A stretch of 30,443 bases of DNA from a virus: the IMG/VR virus record IMGVR_UViG_3300044631_001387, positions 1 to 30,443 of that record; one strand, written 5' to 3'. Below are positions 10,252 to 28,816 of the stretch, piece after piece (position 1 is the stretch's first letter; every line of letters starts with the position of its first letter). The notes beneath the pieces are model-generated. The model ran no database searches and was not told where the DNA came from. It was given only the letters and a program-made list of their open reading frames with translations. Both the position numbers and the translations under genes were made by a program.

Positions 10252-12537
10252 ATGAATAAAGAAATTTTTATAAAGAAAAGAAATGGTCTCACTGAGAAGT
10301 TTAATGCAGATAAAATCAATAAGATTTTACAATGGGCTACTGAAGATATAAAAGGTGTTGGATTTGAAGAAGTAGCAATGAATGCCCATTTGTCGTTCTT
10401 TGATGGAATGACATCAAAAGATATCCACGTGATGTTGATTGAAGCCGCATCTAATTTAATTACAGAAGATAAACCTAATTATCAATTTGTAGCATCACGT
10501 TTATTAAATTATCAACTACGAAAGAATGTTTGGGGTGGTAAAAATCCCCCAAAGTTACACGATCTAGTTAAAACTAATATTGATGCGTTGGTTTATGACT
10601 CGGATATTTTAAATTGGTATTCTAAACAAGAATTTGATAAGCTAGATGAGTTTCTACGACATGATCGTGATTTTAATTTCACGTATGCCGGTATCAAACA
10701 GCTGTGTGATAAGTACTTGGTTCAAAATAGGGCTACTAAGGTAATTTATGAAAGTCCTCAGTTTGCTTATATGCTTATCGCAATGACATTCTTTAAAGAT
10801 TATAAAGAAAATCGACTTGAGTATGTAAAGAAAGCTTATAATTACTTTAGTAAACATAAGATTAATTTACCCACACCAATTATGGCAGGCGTAAGAACTC
10901 CAATGAAGAGTTATGCCAGTTGTTCACTGTTCACAGTCGATGATGATCTACGTAGTATTTTCAGCAACAATAGTGCGGTTGGGTTTGCTACAGCTAGTCG
11001 TTATGGTATTGGATTGAATTTATCAAGACTACGTGCTACAAACGCGCCAATTCGTAATGGCGAAGTAATGCATACAGGTCCAATTCCGTTTGCTAAATCA
11101 TTTGAAGCTACAGTAAAGAGTTGTCACCAGAATGGCATTCGTGGTGGGAGCGCAACTGTAAATTTCGCTTGGTTCCATTATGATATTCTAGATATTCTTG
11201 TATTAAAGAATAATCAAGGCACAGATGATAATCGGGTTCGTAAGTTAGATTATTGTGTGGGTCTTGATAAACTAATTTTTGAACGTTTCTTGAAGAATCA
11301 AGACGTTACACTATTCAGTTATCACGAATGTCCTTCACTGTGGAATACATTTGGATTAGAAGGATTCAAAGAAAAATATGAAAAGGCTGAAGCTAACAAG
11401 AATCTCAAGTTCAAGAAGAAAGTACCTGCACGTGAATTGATGGGACTATTAGCTAAAGAACGTCTTGAAACAGGTCGTATTTATACAATGTTTGTTGATC
11501 ATGCAAATGAACACGGTAGTTGGTTGGATCAAGTAGATACAAGCAATCTTTGCCTTGAAGTGCATCATCCATTAATTCCCATTTATGACGTTAATGATCA
11601 AAAAGGAGAAATTGGAGTCTGTGTATTGGCAGCATTGAATTGGTTAGAAATTAAAGATGATACTGAAATGGAAAATGTATGTGATATTATCGTCAGAATG
11701 TTGGATGCTTTGATTGATCACCAAGAATATTTTGTACCAGCCGCAAAGAATTTTGCTACTAAACGTCGTAGTCTTGGTGTAGGTGTAAGTAACTTGGCTG
11801 CTCTATTGGCTAAAGAAGGATTGAAGTATTGGGATGAGAAAGCTCCAAATTTCGTATCCAGATGGATGGAAAAGACCAGTTACTATCTAATCAAAGCAAG
11901 TGTTGAAATGGCAAAAGAAATTGGTAAGTGTGAAAAGTTTGATCGTACTAAATTTAGTCAAGGTATTCTTCCTATTGATACTTATAAACGGGACATTGAT
12001 GAATTTATCACTGAACCTTTACACATGGATTGGGAAGCTTTACGTGAAGACATCAAGAAGTATGGTATGAGACACAGTACGCTTACTGCTTGTATGCCTG
12101 TAGAATCAAGCAGTGTAATTCAAAGTAGTACCAATGGTATTGAACCCCCCCGTAGTGCTATTAGTTTCAAGGGAAGCAAGAGTAACATTTTGCCTGTGGT
12201 AGTTCCAAATATTGATAAGTACAAGGATAATTATACTTTTGCTTTTGATATGCCAAATAATGAAGGATATTTGAAGGTAGCTGCTGCTATTCAAAAGTTC
12301 ACAGATATGAGTATCAGTACCAACACGTACTATATTCCGTCCCGTTATGAGAAAAACAAAGTGCCTGTAGAGGTTGTTATTAAAGATATTTTGTTGGCAT
12401 ACAAGTATGGATTGAAGAATCTATATTATGCTAATACAGATGATGGTGATAAACAAACAGCCATGGAAACAAAAACGGTTGATGAAAAACCAATAGTACA
12501 AGAATCCGGTTGTGAAAGCGGAGCTTGTGCTCTATAA
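10252..12537 (+). CDS. nrdA: class Ia ribonucleotide reductase, large subunit
   Basis: It reduces ribonucleoside diphosphates to deoxyribonucleotides together with NrdB. An N-terminal ATP-cone (KKRNGLTEKFNADKINKIL) spans about residues 5-90. The active-site set is complete: C224 in SYASCSLF, N432, C434 and E436 in NLCLEV, and C457 in GVCVLAALNW. The radical-relay pair LYYANT lies near the C-terminus, and SSVIQSSTNGIEPPRS is the conserved loop. The protein ends in CESGACAL, the shuttle cysteines in the same context as E. coli NrdA. The length of 761 residues matches E. coli. No Shine-Dalgarno sequence precedes the ATG. The 101 bases upstream are AT-rich with no clear promoter, so it may be read from the helicase promoter. 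nrdB follows after 13 bases. Confidence 0.96.
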   Translation: MNKEIFIKKRNGLTEKFNADKINKILQWATEDIKGVGFEEVAMNAHLSFFDGMTSKDIHVMLIEAASNLITEDKPNYQFVASRLLNYQLRKNVWGGKNPPKLHDLVKTNIDALVYDSDILNWYSKQEFDKLDEFLRHDRDFNFTYAGIKQLCDKYLVQNRATKVIYESPQFAYMLIAMTFFKDYKENRLEYVKKAYNYFSKHKINLPTPIMAGVRTPMKSYASCSLFTVDDDLRSIFSNNSAVGFATASRYGIGLNLSRLRATNAPIRNGEVMHTGPIPFAKSFEATVKSCHQNGIRGGSATVNFAWFHYDILDILVLKNNQGTDDNRVRKLDYCVGLDKLIFERFLKNQDVTLFSYHECPSLWNTFGLEGFKEKYEKAEANKNLKFKKKVPARELMGLLAKERLETGRIYTMFVDHANEHGSWLDQVDTSNLCLEVHHPLIPIYDVNDQKGEIGVCVLAALNWLEIKDDTEMENVCDIIVRMLDALIDHQEYFVPAAKNFATKRRSLGVGVSNLAALLAKEGLKYWDEKAPNFVSRWMEKTSYYLIKASVEMAKEIGKCEKFDRTKFSQGILPIDTYKRDIDEFITEPLHMDWEALREDIKKYGMRHSTLTACMPVESSSVIQSSTNGIEPPRSAISFKGSKSNILPVVVPNIDKYKDNYTFAFDMPNNEGYLKVAAAIQKFTDMSISTNTYYIPSRYEKNKVPVEVVIKDILLAYKYGLKNLYYANTDDGDKQTAMETKTVDEKPIVQESGCESGACAL

Positions 12538-12550
12538 TAAAAAAATACAT

Positions 12551-13609
12551 ATGAAAACTGTACTAAATAAGAAAAACATAGATCAGTTGCGCAACCCAAT
12601 GTTCTTGGGAGAAGATCTATCACTTCAGCGATATGATAAGATCAAATATCCAAAGTTTTATGATTTGTACGATCAACAACTAAATTTCTTTTGGCGACCC
12701 CAAGAAGTTTCGTTGGTGAAGGATATTAGTGATTACAAGAATCTTTCTGCTGAAGAACGATTTGTTTTTGACAGTAATTTAAAGTTTCAAACTATGACTG
12801 ATAGTATGTTGAGTCGTAGTATTCACGAACTAATGAAGCACGTTACAAATAGTGAATTGGAAATTTGTATGAACGCGTGGAGTTTCTTTGAAACTATTCA
12901 CAGTAACAGTTATACATACATTCTTAACAATGTTTATCCAGATGCTACCAAGTTCTTTGATAGTGTCTTAGAAGATGAAGAAATTGTGAAACGTGCTAAA
13001 GCTATTAGTAAGAAGTATGATGAACTATTAACGCCGTCGGATGATATTAAACAACAATTGTTTGATGCTGTATTGGCAACTCAAATTACTGAGGGATTGA
13101 TATTCTATGTGTCATTTGCTTGTAGTTTCTATTTTGGATATCGTGGAAAGATGGAGGGTAACAGTAAGATTATTAAGTTTATCAGTAGAGATGAAAATCT
13201 TCACGTAGCTATTACCCAGAACATTATGAAGAATTGGATAAATAATCCAGAAGAAGGGTTCCAAGACATTGTTAAGAAAAATGAAGACAAGATATATGCT
13301 ACTTATGAAATGGCAGTAAATGCTGAAAAAGATTGGGCAGATTATCTATTTAGTAAAGGTAGTTTGGTTGGATTGACGGCGGAAAGTTTGAAACATTATA
13401 TTGAATGGTTGGCTAATAACAGATTAACAAGTATGGGATATAAGAAATTGTATCCAGCTGCTAAGACCAATTTACTATCAGGATGGTTAGATAGTTACTA
13501 TGATAGTAAAAAACTTCAAGTAGCCCCCCAAGAAACTGAATTGAGTAGTTATGTTAAAGGAGTTGATAACACGATCAGTGAAGGTGCATTTGACGATTTC
13601 AAATTGTAA
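12551..13609 (+). CDS. nrdB: class Ia ribonucleotide reductase, small (radical) subunit
   Basis: It carries the di-iron tyrosyl radical for NrdA. All ligands are visible: D84 (FQTMTDSM), E114 and H117 (FFETIHSNSY), E181 (TEGLIFYVSFACSF), E215 and H218 (RDENLH). The radical tyrosine is Y121. The C-terminus, ISEGAFDDFKL, is the NrdA-docking tail. Upstream codons are open to a GTG at 12512 inside nrdA, but the family start and the length of 352 residues fit the ATG at 12551. It follows nrdA by 13 bases in the same operon, and a strong terminator lies 21 bases after the stop. Confidence 0.95.
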   Translation: MKTVLNKKNIDQLRNPMFLGEDLSLQRYDKIKYPKFYDLYDQQLNFFWRPQEVSLVKDISDYKNLSAEERFVFDSNLKFQTMTDSMLSRSIHELMKHVTNSELEICMNAWSFFETIHSNSYTYILNNVYPDATKFFDSVLEDEEIVKRAKAISKKYDELLTPSDDIKQQLFDAVLATQITEGLIFYVSFACSFYFGYRGKMEGNSKIIKFISRDENLHVAITQNIMKNWINNPEEGFQDIVKKNEDKIYATYEMAVNAEKDWADYLFSKGSLVGLTAESLKHYIEWLANNRLTSMGYKKLYPAAKTNLLSGWLDSYYDSKKLQVAPQETELSSYVKGVDNTISEGAFDDFKL

Positions 13610-14977: not shown

Positions 14978-15322
14978 ATGACAAAATTAATTACTATCGC
15001 CGCATTGAGTGCAACTCTAGCTTCTCAAACATTTGCTGGAGATAGAGAATGGGCAACTGTTGGTAAAGTATTAACCGGAGTCGCTGTAATTCATGTTATA
15101 GACAGAATTGTAAATCCCCCAACACAAGTTGTATATATACAACCACAGCCAGTGGTTTACGCACAACCTGTGGTGTATGTTCAACCACAACCAGTGGTTT
15201 ATGCGCAGCCTGTAGTATACGTTCAACCACAACCAGTGGTTTACGTACAACCACAGCCAGTGGTAGTTGTATATGGTGGTTGGGGTCGTCCAGTACATCA
15301 TTATCATCACCATCACCATTGA
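14978..15322 (+). CDS. secreted repeat protein with His-rich C-terminus
   Basis: This 114-residue protein begins with a clear Sec signal peptide (MTKLITIAALSATLASQTFA), with cleavage likely after TFA. A short domain (DREWATVGKVLTGVAVIHVI) follows. Then come tandem repeats of QPQPVVYAQPVVYV and shorter QPQPVVYV units up to about residue 98. A Gly-Trp-Gly turn and HHYHHHHH close the protein. The Pro/Gln/Val/Tyr repeats should form an extended beta or polyproline rod, and the His cluster could bind metal. It would act outside the cytoplasm. It has its own promoter, a strong Shine-Dalgarno sequence and its own terminator, so it is a self-contained expression unit. The composition resembles cell-envelope proteins of bacteria such as Verrucomicrobia, suggesting capture from a host. 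The function is unknown. Confidence 0.75.
   Translation: MTKLITIAALSATLASQTFAGDREWATVGKVLTGVAVIHVIDRIVNPPTQVVYIQPQPVVYAQPVVYVQPQPVVYAQPVVYVQPQPVVYVQPQPVVVVYGGWGRPVHHYHHHHH
15140..15271 (+). repeat. in-frame tandem repeat in the secreted protein gene
   Basis: Two 42-base units (15140-15181 and 15182-15223) are followed by two 24-base units (15224-15247 and 15248-15271). Each begins CAACCACA(A/G)CCAGTGG. Unit lengths are multiples of three, so unit number can change without breaking the frame. CCAC...GTGG within each unit can form a small hairpin. Confidence 0.9.
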
Positions 15323-15345: not shown

Positions 15346-15371
15346 AAACCACCGTAACTGGTGGTTTTTTT
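15346..15371 (+). terminator. Rho-independent terminator after the secreted repeat protein
   Basis: AAACCACC (15346-15353), a six-base loop and GGTGGTTT (15360-15367), running into TTTTT. A strong stem with T-tract that isolates the gene from the AAA+ operon downstream. Confidence 0.88.
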
Positions 15372-15381
15372 ATTTTTCCGG

Positions 15382-15416
15382 TTGACTTCTTATAAATCCG
15401 TGGTAAGATGGATTTA
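15382..15416 (+). promoter_or_regulatory. promoter of the MoxR/VWA operon with inverted repeat around the -10
   Basis: TTGACT at 15382-15387, a 16-base spacer and TAAGAT at 15404-15409, preceded by TGG (extended -10). TAAATCC (15393-15399) and GGATTTA (15410-15416) form an inverted repeat that brackets the -10. The start codon is at 15432, with GGTAAGA as a weak ribosome site. Confidence 0.6.
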
Positions 15417-15431
15417 CGGTAAGAAACACAT

Positions 15432-16406
15432 ATGAAAAATACAAACTCATTAAATTTGGTTACTAGCAAGGACTTCAACATCAAGGCGTATCTTGATACT
15501 TGTGTAAATCTGCGTCCTAGTTCATTGATTATGGACGATCTCAAGTGGAAGTATATGGTACGTAGTGCTATTCGTGGCAAGAACATTTTGCTTCTTGGAC
15601 CAACTGGTTGTGGTAAGACTCTTGCTGCTCAAACTGTAGCTAAGGCTATCGGTCGTGAAGATAACTTCTTCTATTTTAATTTGGGTGCTACACAAGATGC
15701 TCGCAGTGCTTTGATTGGTAACACTCACTTTGACAAGAAGACTGGTACTTTATTCAAGGAGTCTAGTTTTATCAAGGCTATTCGCACTCCCAACGCCATC
15801 ATTCTACTTGACGAAATTTCTCGTAGTCATCACGACGGTGTTAATATTCTAATGACTGTTCTTGATGATCTCCAGCGTTATCTTCGATTGGATGAAAAGG
15901 ATGATTGTGAAGTTGTTAAAGTTGCTGACGGTGTAACTTTTATTGCTACTGCTAACGTAGGTAATGAATATACCGCTACCCGTGTAATGGATCGTGCTCT
16001 ACTTTCACGTTTTCCTGTTAAGATTGAAGTGACTCCGCTTGATAAGGACGCTGAATTTTCTCTATTAAAGAATCGGTTTAATATTAACTCTAATGAACAG
16101 TTAGACGTTCTAAAGTCTGTTTGTGAAATTGCTGATCATACACGTAAACAGATTAAGCAAGAAGATAGTAAGCTTACCAATTTTATTCCTACACGTAGTA
16201 CTGTTGAAATTGCGGAACTAATTGTTGATGGATTTAATTTGCTTGAAATTGCTGAGACGACCATTTATCCTAACTTTACTGAGGATGGTGGTGTTGACAG
16301 TGAACGTACATATATTCGCCAGTTGGTACAGAAGTATATTAAGGTAGAATCTAAGGAAAAGTTGTTTAATGATCCATTGAACAATAATACTCAGCCTCCT
16401 TTCTAA
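15432..16406 (+). CDS. MoxR/CobS-type AAA+ ATPase
   Basis: This 324-residue AAA+ protein probably remodels a partner using ATP. Walker A is GPTGCGKT (56-63) and Walker B is AIILLDEISRS (D127, E128). A sensor-1 line, VTFIATANVGNEYTATRVMDRALLSRF, carries the Asn and the arginine finger. A helical lid follows with LTNFIPTRSTVEIAELI. It belongs with the MoxR/CobS class that pairs with VWA proteins, and a VWA protein follows 23 bases downstream. Similar genes in marine T4-like phages are often labelled cobS, but nothing here makes a corrin ring. Codon use has more C-ending codons than its neighbours, hinting at strong expression. The promoter carries an inverted repeat. Confidence 0.85.
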   Translation: MKNTNSLNLVTSKDFNIKAYLDTCVNLRPSSLIMDDLKWKYMVRSAIRGKNILLLGPTGCGKTLAAQTVAKAIGREDNFFYFNLGATQDARSALIGNTHFDKKTGTLFKESSFIKAIRTPNAIILLDEISRSHHDGVNILMTVLDDLQRYLRLDEKDDCEVVKVADGVTFIATANVGNEYTATRVMDRALLSRFPVKIEVTPLDKDAEFSLLKNRFNINSNEQLDVLKSVCEIADHTRKQIKQEDSKLTNFIPTRSTVEIAELIVDGFNLLEIAETTIYPNFTEDGGVDSERTYIRQLVQKYIKVESKEKLFNDPLNNNTQPPF

Positions 16407-16429
16407 TAACATATAGAAAATAAATTATT

Positions 16430-18514
16430 ATGAGCAACTACAGTGATTTCTGGTTAAAGGGTAACAATTACGATTGGGATTGGGAAGATGAACTTGATGC
16501 TGCTATTGCGGATGAAGCTAATAACACGTTAAACGATGACGTAGAAGACCGTGTTTCGGAAAACACATCTCGACTGATTCGTATGTCTTCCGCTCGACGT
16601 GCTATTTCTAATTATGTCAGTATTCTGACAAACCAGAACATTCCTGTAGTATTTAATGACAGTGCTGTAAATTGTACTGATGGTAAGGTGGTTTATATCA
16701 GTAGCGATATTACTAAGAAGGATAATTTTGACGTGGCGGTTGGACTAGCATTACACGAAGGCAGTCACGTCAAATATTCTGATTTTGAAATGTTTAAGAC
16801 AGTGTGGATGAATGTTCCCCGTGACATTTATAATTACACTGAAAAGTTGAATATTTCGAAAGATATTGTTGGCAAGACTAGTCAACAGATTCTAAATTAT
16901 GTAGAAGATCGTTATATTGATTATACTGTACATAATAGTGCGCCTGGTTATCGTGGTTATTACGATGCTTTGTATGATGAATACTTTAATAATAAAGTAA
17001 TTTCAGATGCATTGAAAAGCGATTTATATCGTACACCTAGTATCGATTCATATATGTTTCGTATTATCAATCTCACGAATCCTGATACAAGCTTGAAAGC
17101 ATTGCCTGGTTTGTATGACATTGCTTGTGAATTGAATTTGTCAAATATCCGACGTTTGACAACTCCAAAAGATCGTCTAGACATAGCGTATAAGATTTCT
17201 GAAATTGTATTTAAGAATATTACTGAACATAAAACTGATAATGCACAGTCACAACCAACGGATGGAAATGGTGATGGAGATGGTGATTCATCCGCCGTTG
17301 AAGATGATTCATCGAACCCAACTATATTGGGTACTGCTAGTGATGTACTCGGTGGTATGGAGTCTACTGTTACAACTGATAGTAGTGATGTAACTTCCAA
17401 TATTGGATCTGATTCAAATATTAGTAAGTCTAAACAGACTAAGATTGCTAAATCGTTTGATAAACAGAAAGACTTTCTGGCTGGTAAAATCAAAAAGAAG
17501 AAGGTTTCTAGACGTGAGAAGACATTGCTTGATGTACTAGAAAAGAGTAAAATTGATCTAGTACCTGTTGCAAGTGACGTTCTTAAAAATAACGGAATTG
17601 TTGGTAATGTTGAATGTATTCTTGTAAAGAATATGACAAAAGAATTGATCCTCTCAGATGAATTTCCAATGTCTATTGCAAAAGATGACATTGGCGCTCG
17701 TACTATGTTACAGAAGAATGTGGATGACGGCATTGTGTTAGGAGCTAAGTTGGGCCGCCGTCTTCAGATTCGCAATGAAATTAACGTTGATAAGTTTACC
17801 CGTCGTAATATTGGTAAGATTGATAAACGTTTGATGCATGAACTTGGATTTGAAACTGATAGCAATATCTTTTATAATACATTTGTCACTAAATATAAGA
17901 AGATTAACTTTCATATTAGTGTAGATGCTAGTGCTAGTATGCAAGGCAAAAAGTGGAATCGTACAATTAAACTATGTGTTGCACTAGCAAAAGCTACATC
18001 TATGATTGACAATGTGGATCTGACGATTAGTTTTCGTACATCGATGGGTAACAGTCCATACATTGTAGTTGCATATGATTCTAAGGTTGATAAATTTAGT
18101 AAGATAAAGAATATGTTCTCATATCTTTTGCCAACAAATACAACTCCAGAAGGATTATGTTTTGAAGCATTGTTACGATATTTGCCTAAAGCTAGTAACA
18201 ACACGAACAGTTATTTTGTTAATATTAGTGATGGTGAACCATGTTTTAACTACCATAGTACAGGAGGCATTGGGTTTTCATATAACGGCACAACTGCTTT
18301 GAATCATACTCGTACACAAGTAAATAAAATTCGGGAGACTGGATATAACATCATTTCGTATTTTGTAACGGAATATGAGGGATTTGGAGCCGAAACGTTA
18401 CGTGCTAATTTCAGAACAATGTATGGCGCAGACTCTAATTTTATTAACGTAGAGAATCTAAATCAGATTGTTAAGACTATTAATAAAAAGATGATGGATT
18501 CGATTGACATATAA
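16430..18514 (+). CDS. HExxH metallopeptidase-like + VWA domain protein, partner of the MoxR ATPase
   Basis: The protein has 694 residues. The N-terminal part contains ALHEGSHVKYSDF (H109, E110, H113) and, ~45 residues later, LNYVEDRYID with E159. This is the arrangement of a gluzincin-type zinc peptidase. A disordered acidic linker rich in Asp, Gly and Ser lies around residues 265-320. The C-terminal part is a von Willebrand factor A domain with a complete MIDAS: DASAS (499-503), Thr 572 in TNTTPEG and SDGEP (D601). This architecture resembles CobT-like and other VWA proteins that work with MoxR ATPases. The ATPase would act on the VWA protein, which selects or cleaves a target. Whether it is proteolytic, and against which protein, is unknown. 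It shares an operon with the ATPase. Confidence 0.75.
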   Translation: MSNYSDFWLKGNNYDWDWEDELDAAIADEANNTLNDDVEDRVSENTSRLIRMSSARRAISNYVSILTNQNIPVVFNDSAVNCTDGKVVYISSDITKKDNFDVAVGLALHEGSHVKYSDFEMFKTVWMNVPRDIYNYTEKLNISKDIVGKTSQQILNYVEDRYIDYTVHNSAPGYRGYYDALYDEYFNNKVISDALKSDLYRTPSIDSYMFRIINLTNPDTSLKALPGLYDIACELNLSNIRRLTTPKDRLDIAYKISEIVFKNITEHKTDNAQSQPTDGNGDGDGDSSAVEDDSSNPTILGTASDVLGGMESTVTTDSSDVTSNIGSDSNISKSKQTKIAKSFDKQKDFLAGKIKKKKVSRREKTLLDVLEKSKIDLVPVASDVLKNNGIVGNVECILVKNMTKELILSDEFPMSIAKDDIGARTMLQKNVDDGIVLGAKLGRRLQIRNEINVDKFTRRNIGKIDKRLMHELGFETDSNIFYNTFVTKYKKINFHISVDASASMQGKKWNRTIKLCVALAKATSMIDNVDLTISFRTSMGNSPYIVVAYDSKVDKFSKIKNMFSYLLPTNTTPEGLCFEALLRYLPKASNNTNSYFVNISDGEPCFNYHSTGGIGFSYNGTTALNHTRTQVNKIRETGYNIISYFVTEYEGFGAETLRANFRTMYGADSNFINVENLNQIVKTINKKMMDSIDI

Positions 18515-18531
18515 TTTAAAGATGATATAAT
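18504..18531 (+). promoter_or_regulatory. consensus sigma70 promoter
   Basis: TTGACA at 18504-18509, a 16-base spacer and TATAAT at 18526-18531, with TGA just before the -10. Both hexamers are exact consensus. The -35 lies inside the last codons of the VWA gene. It drives the small gene at 18579, which also has a strong Shine-Dalgarno sequence, AGAAAGGA (18565-18572). Confidence 0.8.
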
Positions 18532-18578
18532 ATATTAACGGTTAAATTTATAACAACATAAACAAGAAAGGATAAAGT

Positions 18579-18962
18579 ATGAAAAAAACAGATCGTAAGA
18601 ATAAGACAAATCAAACAATAAACTGGCCCTCAAACATCTTTACTATTAAAGAGTTGAATGCGCAGAATCCAGATTTCGTAGAGATTACACTACGAACCCG
18701 TATGAAGAAATCGATGGATAGTGGGGAAATCACTGATATTGGAGTTCTACATAATGGTAAGGGGCGACCAACGTTGGTATTTGTATATGGTACTGCTACC
18801 AATGAACATATTGAAGAAGCGAAGAGTCGTCAGGTCATCTTGAAGGACGTTTCGAATGTCAATGTAATTAAAATCACAAATACGCCAACAACAGTTGATA
18901 TTTTTGATCGAAAGAGTGTTGAAACTCGTATCAATGTACAAAACAATACTGTTAATGCCTAA
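18579..18962 (+). CDS. small basic protein, possibly a winged-helix DNA-binding protein
   Basis: This 127-residue protein has a Lys/Arg/Asn-rich start. A segment at about 20-71 then reads like a winged helix: FTIKELNAQNP (helix), FVEITLRTRMKKSMDSGEI (recognition helix region) and HNGKGRPTLVFVYG (wing, with the G-x-GRP line common in such wings). The remainder is beta-rich. It has a perfect-consensus promoter, an optimal Shine-Dalgarno sequence six bases from the ATG and a strong terminator, so it is probably abundant and made alone. A phage transcription regulator or DNA-coating protein would fit. The winged-helix reading is my pattern recognition and not certain. The upstream leader has GTTA-AATTTA-TAAC, a small inverted repeat that could be its own site. 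Confidence 0.6.
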   Translation: MKKTDRKNKTNQTINWPSNIFTIKELNAQNPDFVEITLRTRMKKSMDSGEITDIGVLHNGKGRPTLVFVYGTATNEHIEEAKSRQVILKDVSNVNVIKITNTPTTVDIFDRKSVETRINVQNNTVNA

Positions 18963-19222: not shown

Positions 19223-20407
19223 ATGGATGCACTACAAGAATATTTTGGGATCGAATCATTTGACTTTGAAACTAATAAAAAGAAACTAGTTGACAATCTC
19301 AACTATTTAAAAGCCATGACGGTTGAGGAACAGACATTTTATAAGAAATGGCAAGAGATACAATCATATAATGGATCTGTCAATAAGTTAAATGAAGTAA
19401 AAGCCAAAATTTGGTCTCCAACCGATTTTAATGATGAAAAGTTAACCATCAGTGAAATAGAAAAATGTAATCCAACTTTGGTTCATGTTACTTCTAAACG
19501 AGACAATGATGATTGGACTTTAATTCGTGTTTTTGGTCACACAATGACATTTGATCAAACTCCTGGGAGATTCATAAAGTTTCTTGTTACAGATGGAGAT
19601 AAAGATAATCCCCGTTATATTGGAGCTATCAGTGTATCCAGTGATGTAATTGCTATTACTGATCGGGACGATTATTTGGGATGGACCACAACTGATAAAA
19701 TGGAAAACAAACGATTGGCGCATAGTGCAATTGGTAGTTGTATTATGAGTACGCAACCGATTGGTTATAATTTTCTAGGTGGTAAGTTAGTTGCAGCTAT
19801 GATTACTACATCAACTGTACGTGATCTTTGGAAACAGTTATACGGTCAAATTCTTGTGGGTATGACAACTACAAGTTTATATGGTAGTTATAGTATGTAT
19901 AACAGTTTAAAATGGTGGCATAAGTGTGGATCTAGTGCTGGTAAAATTTCAATTAAACCAGATGAAGATATCTATAAAGTATGGCAAGAATGGGTAAAAG
20001 ATAATTGTACTGAAAAGTATGATAAAGCTATGACTCAACGTGAAGGTGTGTCTGGTCCTGTAACGGGAGCTAAAAGTAGGGTACTAAGTATGATTTTTAG
20101 TAAATGTGATATTAAACAAAGTCATTACCAACACGGATATGAACGTGGGGTATATTACAGTTGTTTTTATGAAAATACTAAAGATTATCTACAAAGCAAG
20201 ATTAATGATGATAAATTAATCATGAAAGACTTGTTTAAACGTGATACTCAAGCTGTTTGTGAGTGGTGGCGACCCAAAGCCATAGAACGATATAAAAAGC
20301 TAAAGAGTGAATCAAATTTAAAGACTAACATACATTTCTATAACCAAATGATTGGTATGTCTTACGAAGAAGCTAAATCTGTTTACTTTCATGAAGTCGG
20401 TAGATAA
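19223..20407 (+). CDS. DUF4338 (DruA-like) domain protein
   Basis: This 394-residue protein has a central region that follows the DUF4338 family line as I know it. RFIKFLVTDGD and YIGAISVSSDVIAI (about 117-145) come first, then DRDDYLGWTTTDK (148-159) and an SAIGSCIM block. GYNFLGGKLVAAM (181-193), LYGQILVGMTTTSLYGSYSMYNSLKWW (207-232) and VYYSCFYENTKDYL follow. Homologues include DruA of the Druantia anti-phage system, and stand-alone copies occur in phages. The N-terminal ~90 residues are helical and unassigned. The biochemical activity of the family is not established. It is transcribed from its own promoter, apart from the neighbouring structural genes. The family call is from memory of conserved blocks. 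Confidence 0.5.
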   Translation: MDALQEYFGIESFDFETNKKKLVDNLNYLKAMTVEEQTFYKKWQEIQSYNGSVNKLNEVKAKIWSPTDFNDEKLTISEIEKCNPTLVHVTSKRDNDDWTLIRVFGHTMTFDQTPGRFIKFLVTDGDKDNPRYIGAISVSSDVIAITDRDDYLGWTTTDKMENKRLAHSAIGSCIMSTQPIGYNFLGGKLVAAMITTSTVRDLWKQLYGQILVGMTTTSLYGSYSMYNSLKWWHKCGSSAGKISIKPDEDIYKVWQEWVKDNCTEKYDKAMTQREGVSGPVTGAKSRVLSMIFSKCDIKQSHYQHGYERGVYYSCFYENTKDYLQSKINDDKLIMKDLFKRDTQAVCEWWRPKAIERYKKLKSESNLKTNIHFYNQMIGMSYEEAKSVYFHEVGR

Positions 20408-25529: not shown

Positions 25530-25903
25530 AACAATTTTCTAATTATTAAATAAATAGTTAATGAACAAATGTAATTAATTGGCAACATTAATAAAGAAAA
25601 CCACTGTTGATATCCGAATAACAATGTTAATATGTTTACCCCAATTAAAGTTGTCCAAAAACACAAACAAATCGGACATGATAATAATTTGGTTAAATAA
25701 CCTGGATATTTTTCATATAAAAAGTTAGGATAGTTAGACATGATATCCACTTCCAACTTGTACTTCTCAAAGTCTGATATTTTTAATAAACTACGTGTGC
25801 TGGTTAGTTTTGAAATGGTTTGAACTATGTCACTTTCAAACCAAACCACCATTATAAATGTGGTATAAAAAATAAGAGGTATATTAAAGTCGGTTATATT
25901 CAT
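25526..25903 (-). CDS. small membrane protein with CPICLCFW motif
   Basis: The protein has 125 residues. Residues ~7-25 (NIPLIFYTTFIMVVWFESD) and two later segments (WTTLIGVNILTLLF, FSLLMLPINYICSLTIYLII) are membrane helices. Between them lies a soluble stretch ending in KLLSCPICLCFWTTL. A C-x-x-C-x-x-F-W line at the start of a membrane helix is typical of small DUF1360-like membrane proteins in bacteria and phages. Its cysteines may bind metal or form a disulfide. The start and stop overlap both neighbours by ATGA, so it belongs to the glycosyltransferase operon and may anchor that machinery to the membrane. The function is not known. Confidence 0.6.
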   Translation of the reverse strand: MNITDFNIPLIFYTTFIMVVWFESDIVQTISKLTSTRSLLKISDFEKYKLEVDIMSNYPNFLYEKYPGYLTKLLSCPICLCFWTTLIGVNILTLLFGYQQWFSLLMLPINYICSLTIYLIIRKLL

Positions 25904-27105
25904 TGTAGTAATTGATTTTTGTACCAGCTATCACTTAGATTGACTAACTTTTTATTATGATCGGTTAATTTATTAATTTTGAGTTTGAATATATCAAATT
26001 CTAATTCTCCTACGATGCCACTATCTTCAAGCATTAACTGTAACATATTAAAGAATTCAAAACTTTGATTTGTTAACTTAACCGCGTCGAATTCGATTAC
26101 AATATCATTTATTTTTTGATCTTCATAACGTTTTAATTTTTTCTTAAGATCAAACTTAGTATTCTTTTGTTCTAAGTTAATATAACGATCATATGAAACA
26201 TCTGTATAAATTGTATCACACCATGGTTCTAATAGAGTTAATTTATATTCATCACAGTTACGAACAACAAATCCAACATCATATCTGTTTGGAACAATAG
26301 GTTTCATAGTATCGTTGTGTTTAACAAAATGTCCCCATTTACGGATGAAGTTTCTGGCACTACGGTTATTTTGAGATAACCATTCATCACTTTCTTTACC
26401 TACTGTAGTTAGAGTTGGATTGTATCTACTTCCTCTACAGGTCATATGATATACGCAACCTTCCCATGTTTGTATAAATTTATATCCGTTTAACAAGAAT
26501 CTATTGAAGATGTCACTGTCTTCTTTGCTTTGGGGTGCATATAGATCATCGTGCCCACCAATAGATTGGAAATCACTCTTATAAATGGCCCATGGCGCAA
26601 AGATTCCTTCTGTGGTTTTATCTTTTCTTGTCATTCGGGTATCATTGAACCATTTCAATAAACCAGCCTCATTAAACTCTTCTGGTTCATTTCCGAATGC
26701 TTGCACAATCTTTTCTGGTCCTGGAGGATGTAAAGGTGGTTCAATGCGGGTAAGACTAACAATAGTACCTGGTTGAATATACTTTTCTACATATTTATCG
26801 AAGTTAGGACACGCATACATATCTGCGTGATAGATCATTACCACATCGTTAGTAGCTACTTCGTTTATAAGACGGTCATATAGAATTGTATGACCCAATC
26901 TGGTTGGACCTTCGTTGCGGATAAATTTGAAGTGCGGATCTTTTTGTGCCGTTTCATTACACCATTCCATCGTACCGTCATTACTGAAGTCGTCTGCAAC
27001 ACAGATTTCATGTTCTTTGTGAGTTAAATTTTTACGAATAGCGTCATAACTCCATTTTAGATATTTTAAGTTATTTCGACTGGGTTGAATAAAACTAATT
27101 TTCAT
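25900..27105 (-). CDS. family 2 glycosyltransferase with C-terminal extension
   Basis: This 401-residue protein has a GT-A fold for transfer of an activated sugar. It shows MKISFIQPSRNN, the nucleotide-binding DDFSNDGT (38-45) and a metal-site line MIYHADMYACPNF with HAD at 93-95. GIFAPWAIYKSDFQSIGGHDD (acceptor region) and QSKEDSDIFNRFLLNGYKF (catalytic ED at 195-196) follow. The first ~250 residues are complete. The last ~150 are Lys/Asn/Asp-rich and unlike the usual family, perhaps a targeting module. Two prolines after LTRIEPPLHPPGP suggest a mobile loop. The gene begins after a promoter in the 93-base gap and overlaps the downstream membrane gene. It acts in the cytoplasm on a glycan or protein of virion or host. 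Confidence 0.8.
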   Translation of the reverse strand: MKISFIQPSRNNLKYLKWSYDAIRKNLTHKEHEICVADDFSNDGTMEWCNETAQKDPHFKFIRNEGPTRLGHTILYDRLINEVATNDVVMIYHADMYACPNFDKYVEKYIQPGTIVSLTRIEPPLHPPGPEKIVQAFGNEPEEFNEAGLLKWFNDTRMTRKDKTTEGIFAPWAIYKSDFQSIGGHDDLYAPQSKEDSDIFNRFLLNGYKFIQTWEGCVYHMTCRGSRYNPTLTTVGKESDEWLSQNNRSARNFIRKWGHFVKHNDTMKPIVPNRYDVGFVVRNCDEYKLTLLEPWCDTIYTDVSYDRYINLEQKNTKFDLKKKLKRYEDQKINDIVIEFDAVKLTNQSFEFFNMLQLMLEDSGIVGELEFDIFKLKINKLTDHNKKLVNLSDSWYKNQLLQ

Positions 27106-27142
27106 ACTATTTAAATATCAACTATACAGTGCCAAAAAGTTT

Positions 27143-27172
27143 ATTATAATTCCGTCATCCGTTTTTTTTCAA
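27143..27172 (-). promoter_or_regulatory. internal promoter of the minus-strand glycosyltransferase operon
   Basis: On the minus strand, TTGAAA (27167-27172), an 18-base spacer and TATAAT (27143-27148). The start point would be about 30 bases before the ATG of the family 2 glycosyltransferase. This 93-base gap is the only sizeable non-coding gap in the minus-strand block. Confidence 0.5.
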
Positions 27173-27198
27173 GTTTTGTTTGGTCAAATCGTCATAAT

Positions 27199-27957
27199 TT
27201 ATGAATATAACTGTTTGTATGATCTTTCCATCCAATAGGAAACATGTCTGTCATTTTGTGGTATTGCGTTAAAATGATATACCCATCCACAGTTTATAAA
27301 ATGTAAATCATCACTAAACCAACTATGACCTGGTATATGTAAAAGATTTTTTCGGAACAGATCTTGTAAATTATAACACTCAGACAGATAATTAATGTCT
27401 ATTTTATTTGATTGTAGTATATAATTTATTATTGTTTGATCTGTACCCGCCTTTATTTCTGATGTTAAACGATTGATTTCATCAATATTATCAGTGTAAA
27501 AGTTTTTTATTGTATCGTAAATAGATTTTGTAGACTTTCCTCCGATTATAAATCCTCCGTTTATATACTTCCAAGGATGTACATCGGATTGATTTGGAAA
27601 AATAGATTTCCATCCTTTAATGCTTCTACAAGTCCATTCATAACATCCGTTATTTAAAACCGCTGAAAATTTATTGTTTGTTTCATTAAAAAAGTTAGGA
27701 CAATTAGGATGTACAATTGTATCAGCATCTACCATCAAAACTTGATCATAATCTATACCATTATGTTCCAAAATATCGTGTACCCACCATCTCTGCAGTG
27801 TGATTTTGAATTTACTAGGATCCATAATTGGGTCTGTCCATTCAATCAACTTGACATCATTTTTATCACACCAATGCTTCCAACTTTTGACACTATAATG
27901 ATATGGATTGCTTCTTCCATTTTTTAAATCTATATTAGGAATGAATACAACATTCAT
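27199..27957 (-). CDS. GT-A glycosyltransferase (DxD type)
   Basis: In this 252-residue protein, VLMVDADTIVHPNCPNFF contains the metal-binding D-x-D (D77, D79). KYINGGFIIGG is the 'NGG' acceptor line, and GTDQTIINYIL is the 'D-Q' helix of GT8/GT34-like transferases. HIPGHSWFSDDLHF and GWVYHFNAIPQNDRH close the domain. An early W-rich stretch (SVKSWKHWCDKNDVKLIEW) is typical of such enzymes. The protein is short but complete. It lies one base downstream of the UDP-sugar dehydrogenase-like gene and probably uses a nucleotide sugar in the same pathway. The precise sugar and acceptor cannot be told. Confidence 0.78.
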   Translation of the reverse strand: MNVVFIPNIDLKNGRSNPYHYSVKSWKHWCDKNDVKLIEWTDPIMDPSKFKITLQRWWVHDILEHNGIDYDQVLMVDADTIVHPNCPNFFNETNNKFSAVLNNGCYEWTCRSIKGWKSIFPNQSDVHPWKYINGGFIIGGKSTKSIYDTIKNFYTDNIDEINRLTSEIKAGTDQTIINYILQSNKIDINYLSECYNLQDLFRKNLLHIPGHSWFSDDLHFINCGWVYHFNAIPQNDRHVSYWMERSYKQLYS

Positions 27958-27958
27958 A

Positions 27959-28816
27959 TTACTTATTATCTGTGACGGCAGACTTTGACTTTTCCCAGTC
28001 TTTATTTTTTCTAACCGATAAATTACGATTCCAAGCTGCTTTTAATATGACAGGATCAATATCAAACTTTTCAAATGTTTCTATAAAAGCGTTGATATCT
28101 TTTGGAAAACATGTGCCACCAAATCCAAAATCATTATCGTGACCTGGTACTTGATAGTGACTTATACCAATTCTGCCATCGGACATAACACCACCTAATA
28201 TTTTATCCCAAGATAGATTTAATTTATCAGATAACAAAAACATTTCATTGAAAAATGATACTTTAGTTGCAAAGAAACAATTTGCAAAGTACTTTACAAA
28301 TTCTGATTCTTTACTCTTCATTGCGTGACACGTGACTCCTGGGAATCTTTCTTCGTACAATTTTTTGATGGTTAGTGTGCCGTTTTCTTCTTCGCCACCA
28401 ACTATATTTCTACTAGGTGTAATAAAATCTATAGCTGCTGATCTTGCAGTCAAAAATTCAGGAGAATGAATAATTTTGAGTGGACTAAACTTTTCACAAA
28501 GATAATCTGTGGTACCAATAGGAACGGTTGATTTAATCACAAATATTGTTTGTGGATTATAAGCGTGAGTTATTACGGTATTAAAGAAATCAACAATATA
28601 AGAAGTATCCGATCCTAATGTATCTTTAAACATTGGAGTTGGTAAACAAACAAATACAATATCTTGTATTATAGTCTCATCAAATGAATGTGTAGATTTT
28701 GCACTGTTTACATCATAGATTTTAACGTCGTGATAGTGATTTAAACCTTTACAAATAGCGCTACCAACAAAACCATTACCAACAATTCCGATTTTAAATT
28801 TGTTCATAAATTTCAT
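27959..28816 (-). CDS. short UDP-glucose/GDP-mannose dehydrogenase-like protein
   Basis: The 285 residues have the NAD-binding Rossmann start IGIVGNGFVGSA (GxGxxG at 13-18). FVIKSTVPIGTT and HSPEFLTARSA (119-122 PEFL) follow, then the central helix FVKYFANCFFATKVSFFNE (Lys, Asn, Lys). GFGGTCFPKD with catalytic Cys236 comes next. These residues match enzymes that oxidise UDP-sugars to uronic acids. The family is normally ~390-440 residues. Here only ~50 residues follow the active cysteine, so the C-terminal sugar-binding/dimer domain is missing. No remnant of it follows. The start may be the ATG at 28816 or MNKFKIG at 28807. It overlaps the upstream gene by 23 bases. The catalytic core looks intact. 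Confidence 0.75.
   Translation of the reverse strand: MKFMNKFKIGIVGNGFVGSAICKGLNHYHDVKIYDVNSAKSTHSFDETIIQDIVFVCLPTPMFKDTLGSDTSYIVDFFNTVITHAYNPQTIFVIKSTVPIGTTDYLCEKFSPLKIIHSPEFLTARSAAIDFITPSRNIVGGEEENGTLTIKKLYEERFPGVTCHAMKSKESEFVKYFANCFFATKVSFFNEMFLLSDKLNLSWDKILGGVMSDGRIGISHYQVPGHDNDFGFGGTCFPKDINAFIETFEKFDIDPVILKAAWNRNLSVRKNKDWEKSKSAVTDNK

Follow-up and report, generated by a model that had tools for sequence, protein, structure and literature searches.

MoxR-class AAA+ ATPases act together with partner proteins that carry a VWA domain in the NorQ-NorD, CbbQ-CbbO and RavA-ViaA systems, and the partners NorD, CbbO and ViaA are not known to have a zincin domain. In NorQ-NorD, the MoxR hexamer holds a finger of the VWA domain in its pore and twists the linker of the partner (PMC13036017). 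Viral genes that bear the names of the cobaltochelatase subunits CobS and CobT (CobT, PDB 9uka) are given as vitamin-B12 metabolic genes in several virome and phage papers (e.g., PMC8651126, PMC11288001, PMC9503304). According to Liu et al. 2021, phage cobT has been ‘mistakenly annotated as a peptidase’ (PMC8651126), while Iyer et al. 2021 describe the version found in jumbo phages as a metallopeptidase-vWA fusion (PMC7824862). Here, we analyse a gene pair of this kind on IMG/VR virus record IMGVR_UViG_3300044631_001387 (positions 1 to 30,443, hereafter the window), a 30-kb record of a T4-like phage that contains its replication region.

The pair lies on the plus strand and consists of moxR (15432..16406), an open reading frame for a MoxR-type AAA+ ATPase of 324 aa whose relatives are mostly labelled cobS, and vwa (16430..18514), which starts 23 bp past the moxR stop and encodes a zincin-like domain, a linker and a VWA domain in 694 aa; the labels of its relatives are cobT, peptidase or VWA protein. 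Both genes belong to a single operon, whose sigma70-type promoter is conserved. Iyer et al. 2021 (PMC7824862) have already published the architecture from the group 2.2 jumbo phages (ASV44729.1/ASV44728.2), which, compared by their described layout, likewise combine a MoxR ATPase with an N-terminal metallopeptidase-vWA protein. New here are the homology of the N-terminal domain to that of CobT with its contrast in the HExxH motif, the exchange of the ribonucleotide reductase (RNR) class together with the lack of CobN, and the promoter class and replication neighbourhood of the pair. We propose, with a probability of roughly 0.5, that the pair is an ATP-driven remodeller or peptidase whose client protein is encountered during the early or middle phase, within or close to DNA replication or the supply of nucleotides.

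Conserved residues and predicted fold

The AAA+ core of the ATPase carries MoxR/AAA_5-type motifs for Walker A (GPTGCGKT, residues 56-63, 15597..15620, plus strand) and Walker B (IILLDE, residues 123-128, 15798..15815, plus strand), and the gene adjacent to it encodes a VWA domain with an intact metal ion-dependent adhesion site (MIDAS). The ATPase matches AAA_5 in Pfam (1.2e-17) and phrog_249 in PHROG (6.6e-27), and among solved structures of the MoxR class the Midasin AAA and NorQ are closest to it in sequence. By analogy, it is predicted to assemble into a hexamer, to bind the VWA protein and to hydrolyse ATP. Against bpMoxR PF20030, the ATPase reaches 28.2 bits (cut-off 27), and no third component (VMAP or beta-propeller) of the MoxR-vWA ternary conflict systems was found among the scanned neighbours of the pair. 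An initial annotation, made from the sequence alone, had ascribed above-average codon bias to the module; this holds for moxR, whose effective number of codons (ENC) of 35.7 is exceptional and the lowest among 25 genes, and not for vwa, which is average (41.0).

The same annotation had described a complete Walker A/B ATPase followed by a protein with HEGSH, a downstream E159 and a MIDAS-intact VWA domain, and its reading frames, residue numbers and motifs are all borne out by the sequence and by an alignment of 38 zincin-VWA proteins (some near-identical, identity down to about 23%). The N-terminal zincin/gluzincin-like domain (residues 37-268, 16538..17233) carries HEGSH (residues 109-113, 16754..16768), which would supply two zinc ligands and the catalytic Glu, and E159 (16904..16906, within NYVEDRYID) as the putative third ligand. 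The MIDAS comprises DASAS (residues 499-503, D499-x-S501-x-S503, 17924..17938), T572 (18143-18145) and D601 (18230-18232), all these features being on the plus strand. H109, E110, H113, N156, E159, D160, D499, S501, S503 and D601 are conserved in 38/38 sequences and T572 in 37/38, and the invariance of H109, E110 and H113 implies that the HExxH is no chance occurrence. In a second set of ten far phage proteins (identity 21-38% to its first member; one protein, L076, is common to both sets), the invariant residues of the N-terminal domain are the H, E, H, N, E and D of HExxH...NxxED, and the zinc and MIDAS residues rank among the few invariant positions across both sets. The ratio of nonsynonymous to synonymous substitution rates (dN/dS) is low for both genes and well below 1 in every domain, with pairwise values of about 0.06-0.11 for moxR. 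Judged from these alignments, the zinc residues, the MIDAS residues and the ATPase are intact and under purifying selection.

An AlphaFold2 model of the N-terminal domain (predicted local distance difference test, pLDDT, 91.4; predicted template modelling score, pTM, 0.87) has strands at 73-75 and 88-90 followed by a helix at 97-116 that bears HEGSH, as in gluzincins, and places E159 on a helix at 144-170. Among predicted viral structures, the Foldseek matches to this domain are CobT-like VWA proteins from tailed viruses, haloarchaeal ones included (E about 1e-4). Against the PDB there is no match below 0.001, and the best metallopeptidase, jannalysin (4jix, probability 0.80), is not significant by its E-value of 1.9. 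Minigluzincins such as jannalysin and selecase, as well as Wss1, share the HExxH zincin core and differ from the window protein in having no VWA domain and, in Wss1, a His as third ligand. The best PDB fold match of the VWA domain is that of NorD, and its profile matches CobT 9uka at 3.4e-8. Pfam hmmscan gave no match for the window's VWA protein, and the link to CobT_C is visible only through diverged relatives and profiles (CobT_C matches in 10/30 relatives). The label ‘HNH endonuclease’ of phrog_1314, which matches weakly at 16520-17000 (residues 31-189), was rejected, as the matched region is the zincin domain. Overall, the N-terminal domain is putatively a zinc-binding peptidase, and the pair could plausibly be an ATP-driven peptidase or chaperone.

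Relation to CobT and to ribonucleotide reductase

The profile of the window N-terminal domain matches the profile of phage ‘CobT’ proteins at 1.9e-15 over 189 columns, and the latter matches the N-terminal domain of cellular CobT at 4.8e-7; direct comparisons of the window domain with cellular CobT, including a profile match, are not significant. Through these phage intermediates, the profiles identify the window domain as a distant homologue of the CobT N-terminal domain. At the aligned place HExxH is absent in 8/8 cellular CobT-family proteins, which have SMALR-like residues (e.g., DSMALR) and retain the downstream Glu, whereas the motif is kept by 13 of the 16 phage ‘CobT’ proteins compared, a diverse set from which the window's own is excluded. 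The simpler reading would be that the zinc site was lost in cellular CobT, a direction of change that we infer. When the phage copies are regarded as CobT relatives with an intact zinc site, the views of Liu et al. and Iyer et al. are reconciled. The ‘CobS/CobT’ of other phages and archaeal viruses (CRP-810, SSU5, ICP2, RHph, HCTV-2, HHTV-2) represent the same pair, usually with the zinc motif intact and in a replication neighbourhood; they differ in their distant sequence, as the N-terminal profile value indicates, and in some members the zinc motif is lost.

Following the proposal of Liu et al. 2021 (PMC8651126), the two proteins would serve as subunits of a cobaltochelatase and hijack the CobN of the host, thereby boosting cobalamin supply. 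The far phage relatives do match CobT 9uka over nearly the full length (5.1e-63), a VWA domain of the CobT type is present in the window, and a B12-dependent RNR lies upstream in some close relatives. However, the window protein has no match to the CobT family PF06213, HExxH is missing from cellular CobT, and the pair is kept together with the B12-independent nrdAB in the window, as in most members of the clade. In a co-occurrence survey, CobN was found in 0/28 records, among them 13 phage records covered over their whole length, while positive controls were detected. The initial annotation is upheld in that the ‘cobS/cobT’ label is misleading and that cobN does not travel with the pair. We consider a cobaltochelatase role very improbable, and the B12 label for the pair is probably wrong.

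In the freshwater clade of related loci, the slot just upstream of the pair is occupied either by class Ia nrdAB (nrdA/nrdB at 10252..13609, plus strand, in the window) or by a class II-like enzyme. The latter, found in L013, L014, L015/L016, L050 and L053, is like the adenosylcobalamin-dependent RTPR, and the RTPR family TIGR02505 is above cut-off in G004, a 173-kb relative. Between L045 (class II) and L057 (class Ia) the pair is nearly the same (dN 0.069 for moxR and 0.082 for vwa). Because the RNR class swaps while the pair stays, retention of the pair does not track a need for B12. The three-piece class II RNR of L050 (139-3724) perhaps contains introns or inteins.

An alternative that links the pair to RNR itself is an activase of the NorQD/CobST type that inserts metal into or activates the reductase, with HExxH as a metal site and not a protease. 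It would fit the presence of an RNR, whichever its class, directly before the pair in the freshwater loci, the metal insertion driven by NorQD, and the closeness of the VWA domain to those of CobT and NorD. The replacement of class Ia by class II leaves the pair unchanged, however, the RNR large subunit was undetected in 5 of 11 pair-bearing isolate records (CRP-810, ICP2, Mae-Yong1326-1, GMA6 and BS162P1), and in Mel-JY01 the RNR lies about 74-90 kb from both genes, which makes such an activase improbable. The class swap and the phages with no detected RNR weaken RNR-linked and B12 readings alike.

Promoter class and gene neighbourhood

An intrinsic terminator (15346..15367, plus strand) sets the pair apart from the upstream gene, and in most of 14 aligned loci its hairpin has kept its position with a changed stem sequence. 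The conserved operon promoter (TTGACT-16-TAAGAT, 15382..15409, plus strand) has TG before the second hexamer. A first scan yielded 20 related viral loci, and a rescan with their alignment yielded 53, among them most of the first set. In the promoter comparison, TTGAC-N16-TAnnnT occurs upstream of moxR in 20/20 loci, in which vwa showed no separate promoter. The operator that had been suggested at the moxR promoter was rejected: the overlapping palindrome is not conserved, and only TTGAC and the extended -10 are kept.

Within 60 nt upstream of moxR, TATTTATA is found in 0/20 loci. In G004 it precedes 21 of 188 genes (shuffles, n=200: mean 3.8, max 10), which include virion/tail and tape-measure genes and also a homing endonuclease and a deoxyribonucleotidase-like gene; among ten of these genes that were tested, three or more had no match. 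The motif may represent a phage late promoter that differs from the T4 late motif TATAAATA, for which G004 shows no enrichment (5 genes; shuffles mean 4.5). Sites of TATTTATA near start codons, often of structural genes, were seen in L108-L116 (G004) and at 2883, 2895, 13665, 14268 and 20433 in the window.

These promoters bear on the main rival explanation, in which the pair is a chaperone-peptidase of virion assembly that folds and trims structural proteins. Drawing an analogy to the MoxR-vWA tail chaperone of the Acidianus two-tailed virus, Iyer et al. 2021 proposed that this architecture serves virion assembly (PMC7824862), and the high codon bias of moxR suits an abundant protein. Yet the 20 loci combine a sigma70-type promoter with the lack of TATTTATA, the pair sits in replication modules in several lineages, and in ICP2, where it lies in the replication half, it is on the strand opposite to the structural half. 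Promoter class and neighbours thus indicate the replication phase here, so that the virion target considered in the initial annotation becomes less likely, and a role in assembly, while the foremost competitor, is unlikely.

The window encodes a DNA-polymerase-like gene, ssb, uvsX, an exonuclease, a DnaB-type helicase, nrdA, nrdB, an endonuclease and clamp-loader genes, and in its clade the pair lies between helicase/RNR and the clamp loader. In the marine clade vwa adjoins ssb-uvsX-exonuclease-helicase. The pair stands beside DNA polymerase III alpha in SSU5, RHph, V1VFA-S, nickie and BUCTxx99, beside polymerase and primase/helicase in T5S1, near DnaB in TSP4, and within a replication/accessory module in Hardycor1 (PMC7911831). 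ATPase and VWA genes lie side by side in an order that varies (moxR-vwa in the window, vwa-moxR in L065, CobT-CobS in ICP2, SSU5, RHph and nickie), except in Mel-JY01 and a few contigs.

Downstream, the freshwater clade has the gene order moxR-vwa-g127 and then usually druA. The small gene g127 (18579..18962, plus strand, 127 aa) directly follows vwa and is conserved (52-97% identity in this clade), with the invariant motifs TDRKNKT and NGKGRP. Its promoter within the vwa end (TTGACA-16-TATAAT, 18504..18531, plus strand) is a 12/12 sigma70 match, and promoter and ribosome site are indeed conserved across loci. The winged-helix character first ascribed to g127 was not recovered in family and fold searches, which gave no Pfam family and a best PDB match of E 0.58; g127 is possibly a DNA-binding protein. 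A DruA-like gene beside the pair (19223-20407; Pfam DruA 7.8e-19, PADLOC DruA 3.1e-18) is kept in most loci of the clade. It was considered as part of the module and rejected, since it is not strictly linked and is missing there in L050 and L053.

The takeover or counter-defence role put forward initially, taken here as that of a peptidase destroying a host protein, would suit the early-type promoter and the neighbouring DruA-like gene. However, PADLOC gives no match for the VWA protein or g127 and only generic AAA matches for the ATPase, and the pair is still there in both loci that miss druA. Anti-host genes are usually patchy in distribution, whereas this pair is deeply conserved with replication genes across unrelated phages. 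A counter-defence role is as improbable as that of an RNR activase.

In the replication-phase reading that we favour, the MoxR-class AAA+ hexamer would dock the VWA/MIDAS domain of its partner and work the linker in the style of NorQ-NorD, after which the gluzincin-like zinc domain would cut the client protein or, less likely, only grip it. Physical complex, peptidase activity and client are all predicted. The expression class (sigma70-type, no TATTTATA) and the genome position suggest that the client is not met in the virion but early or in the middle phase, in or near replication or the supply of nucleotides. Several points weigh against this reading. Fold support for a zincin from the PDB is weak; the zinc motif is lost in nickie, BUCTxx99 and TSP4 and its Glu in ICP2, which suggests that proteolysis is dispensable in some relatives; and the late role of TATTTATA is itself something that we infer. 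Further, moxR and vwa are about 14 kb apart in Mel-JY01, the neighbourhoods of GMA6 and Mel-JY01 are ambiguous, and the neighbourhood tally is descriptive, has no formal null and includes several related phages.

A functional parallel to the pair may exist in Wss1, a protease of minigluzincin-like structure that targets DNA-protein crosslinks and carries a motif for binding Cdc48/p97 (PMC5557861); this parallel is not evidence. A bolder version, in which viral ‘cobST’, widely counted among auxiliary metabolic genes, would be an ATP-powered zinc protease that clears or processes proteins at the replication fork, the functional counterpart of Wss1-Cdc48, and in which cellular CobT descended from such a protease by loss of the zinc site, is quite unlikely.

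Other occurrences and significance

Elsewhere in the window, a 114-aa protein (14978-15322) has a signal-like start, PVVYVQPQ repeats and an HHYHHHHH tail, and genes resembling glycosyltransferase and UDP-glucose-dehydrogenase lie on the minus strand (25900-28816). The only match found among cellular homologues is a 15-kb contig (L081) filed under a Nitrosopelagicus metagenome-assembled genome, with the pair at 59% (moxR) and 35% (vwa), which is probably an unrecognised virus contig. The CobT VWA domain is matched by 957 plasmid records. Klebsiella, Escherichia and other Enterobacteriaceae are the source of many of these records, and many of the matching plasmids resemble SSU5-type phage-plasmids and are labelled ‘porphyrin biosynthesis’.

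These plasmid-borne VWA relatives offer tractable laboratory systems. With phage ‘CobT’ recast, as these data argue, as a zincin-VWA protein whose retention B12 does not explain, a long-standing annotation becomes directly testable, and the hypothesis that the pair acts in the replication phase now comes with defined residues for mutation.

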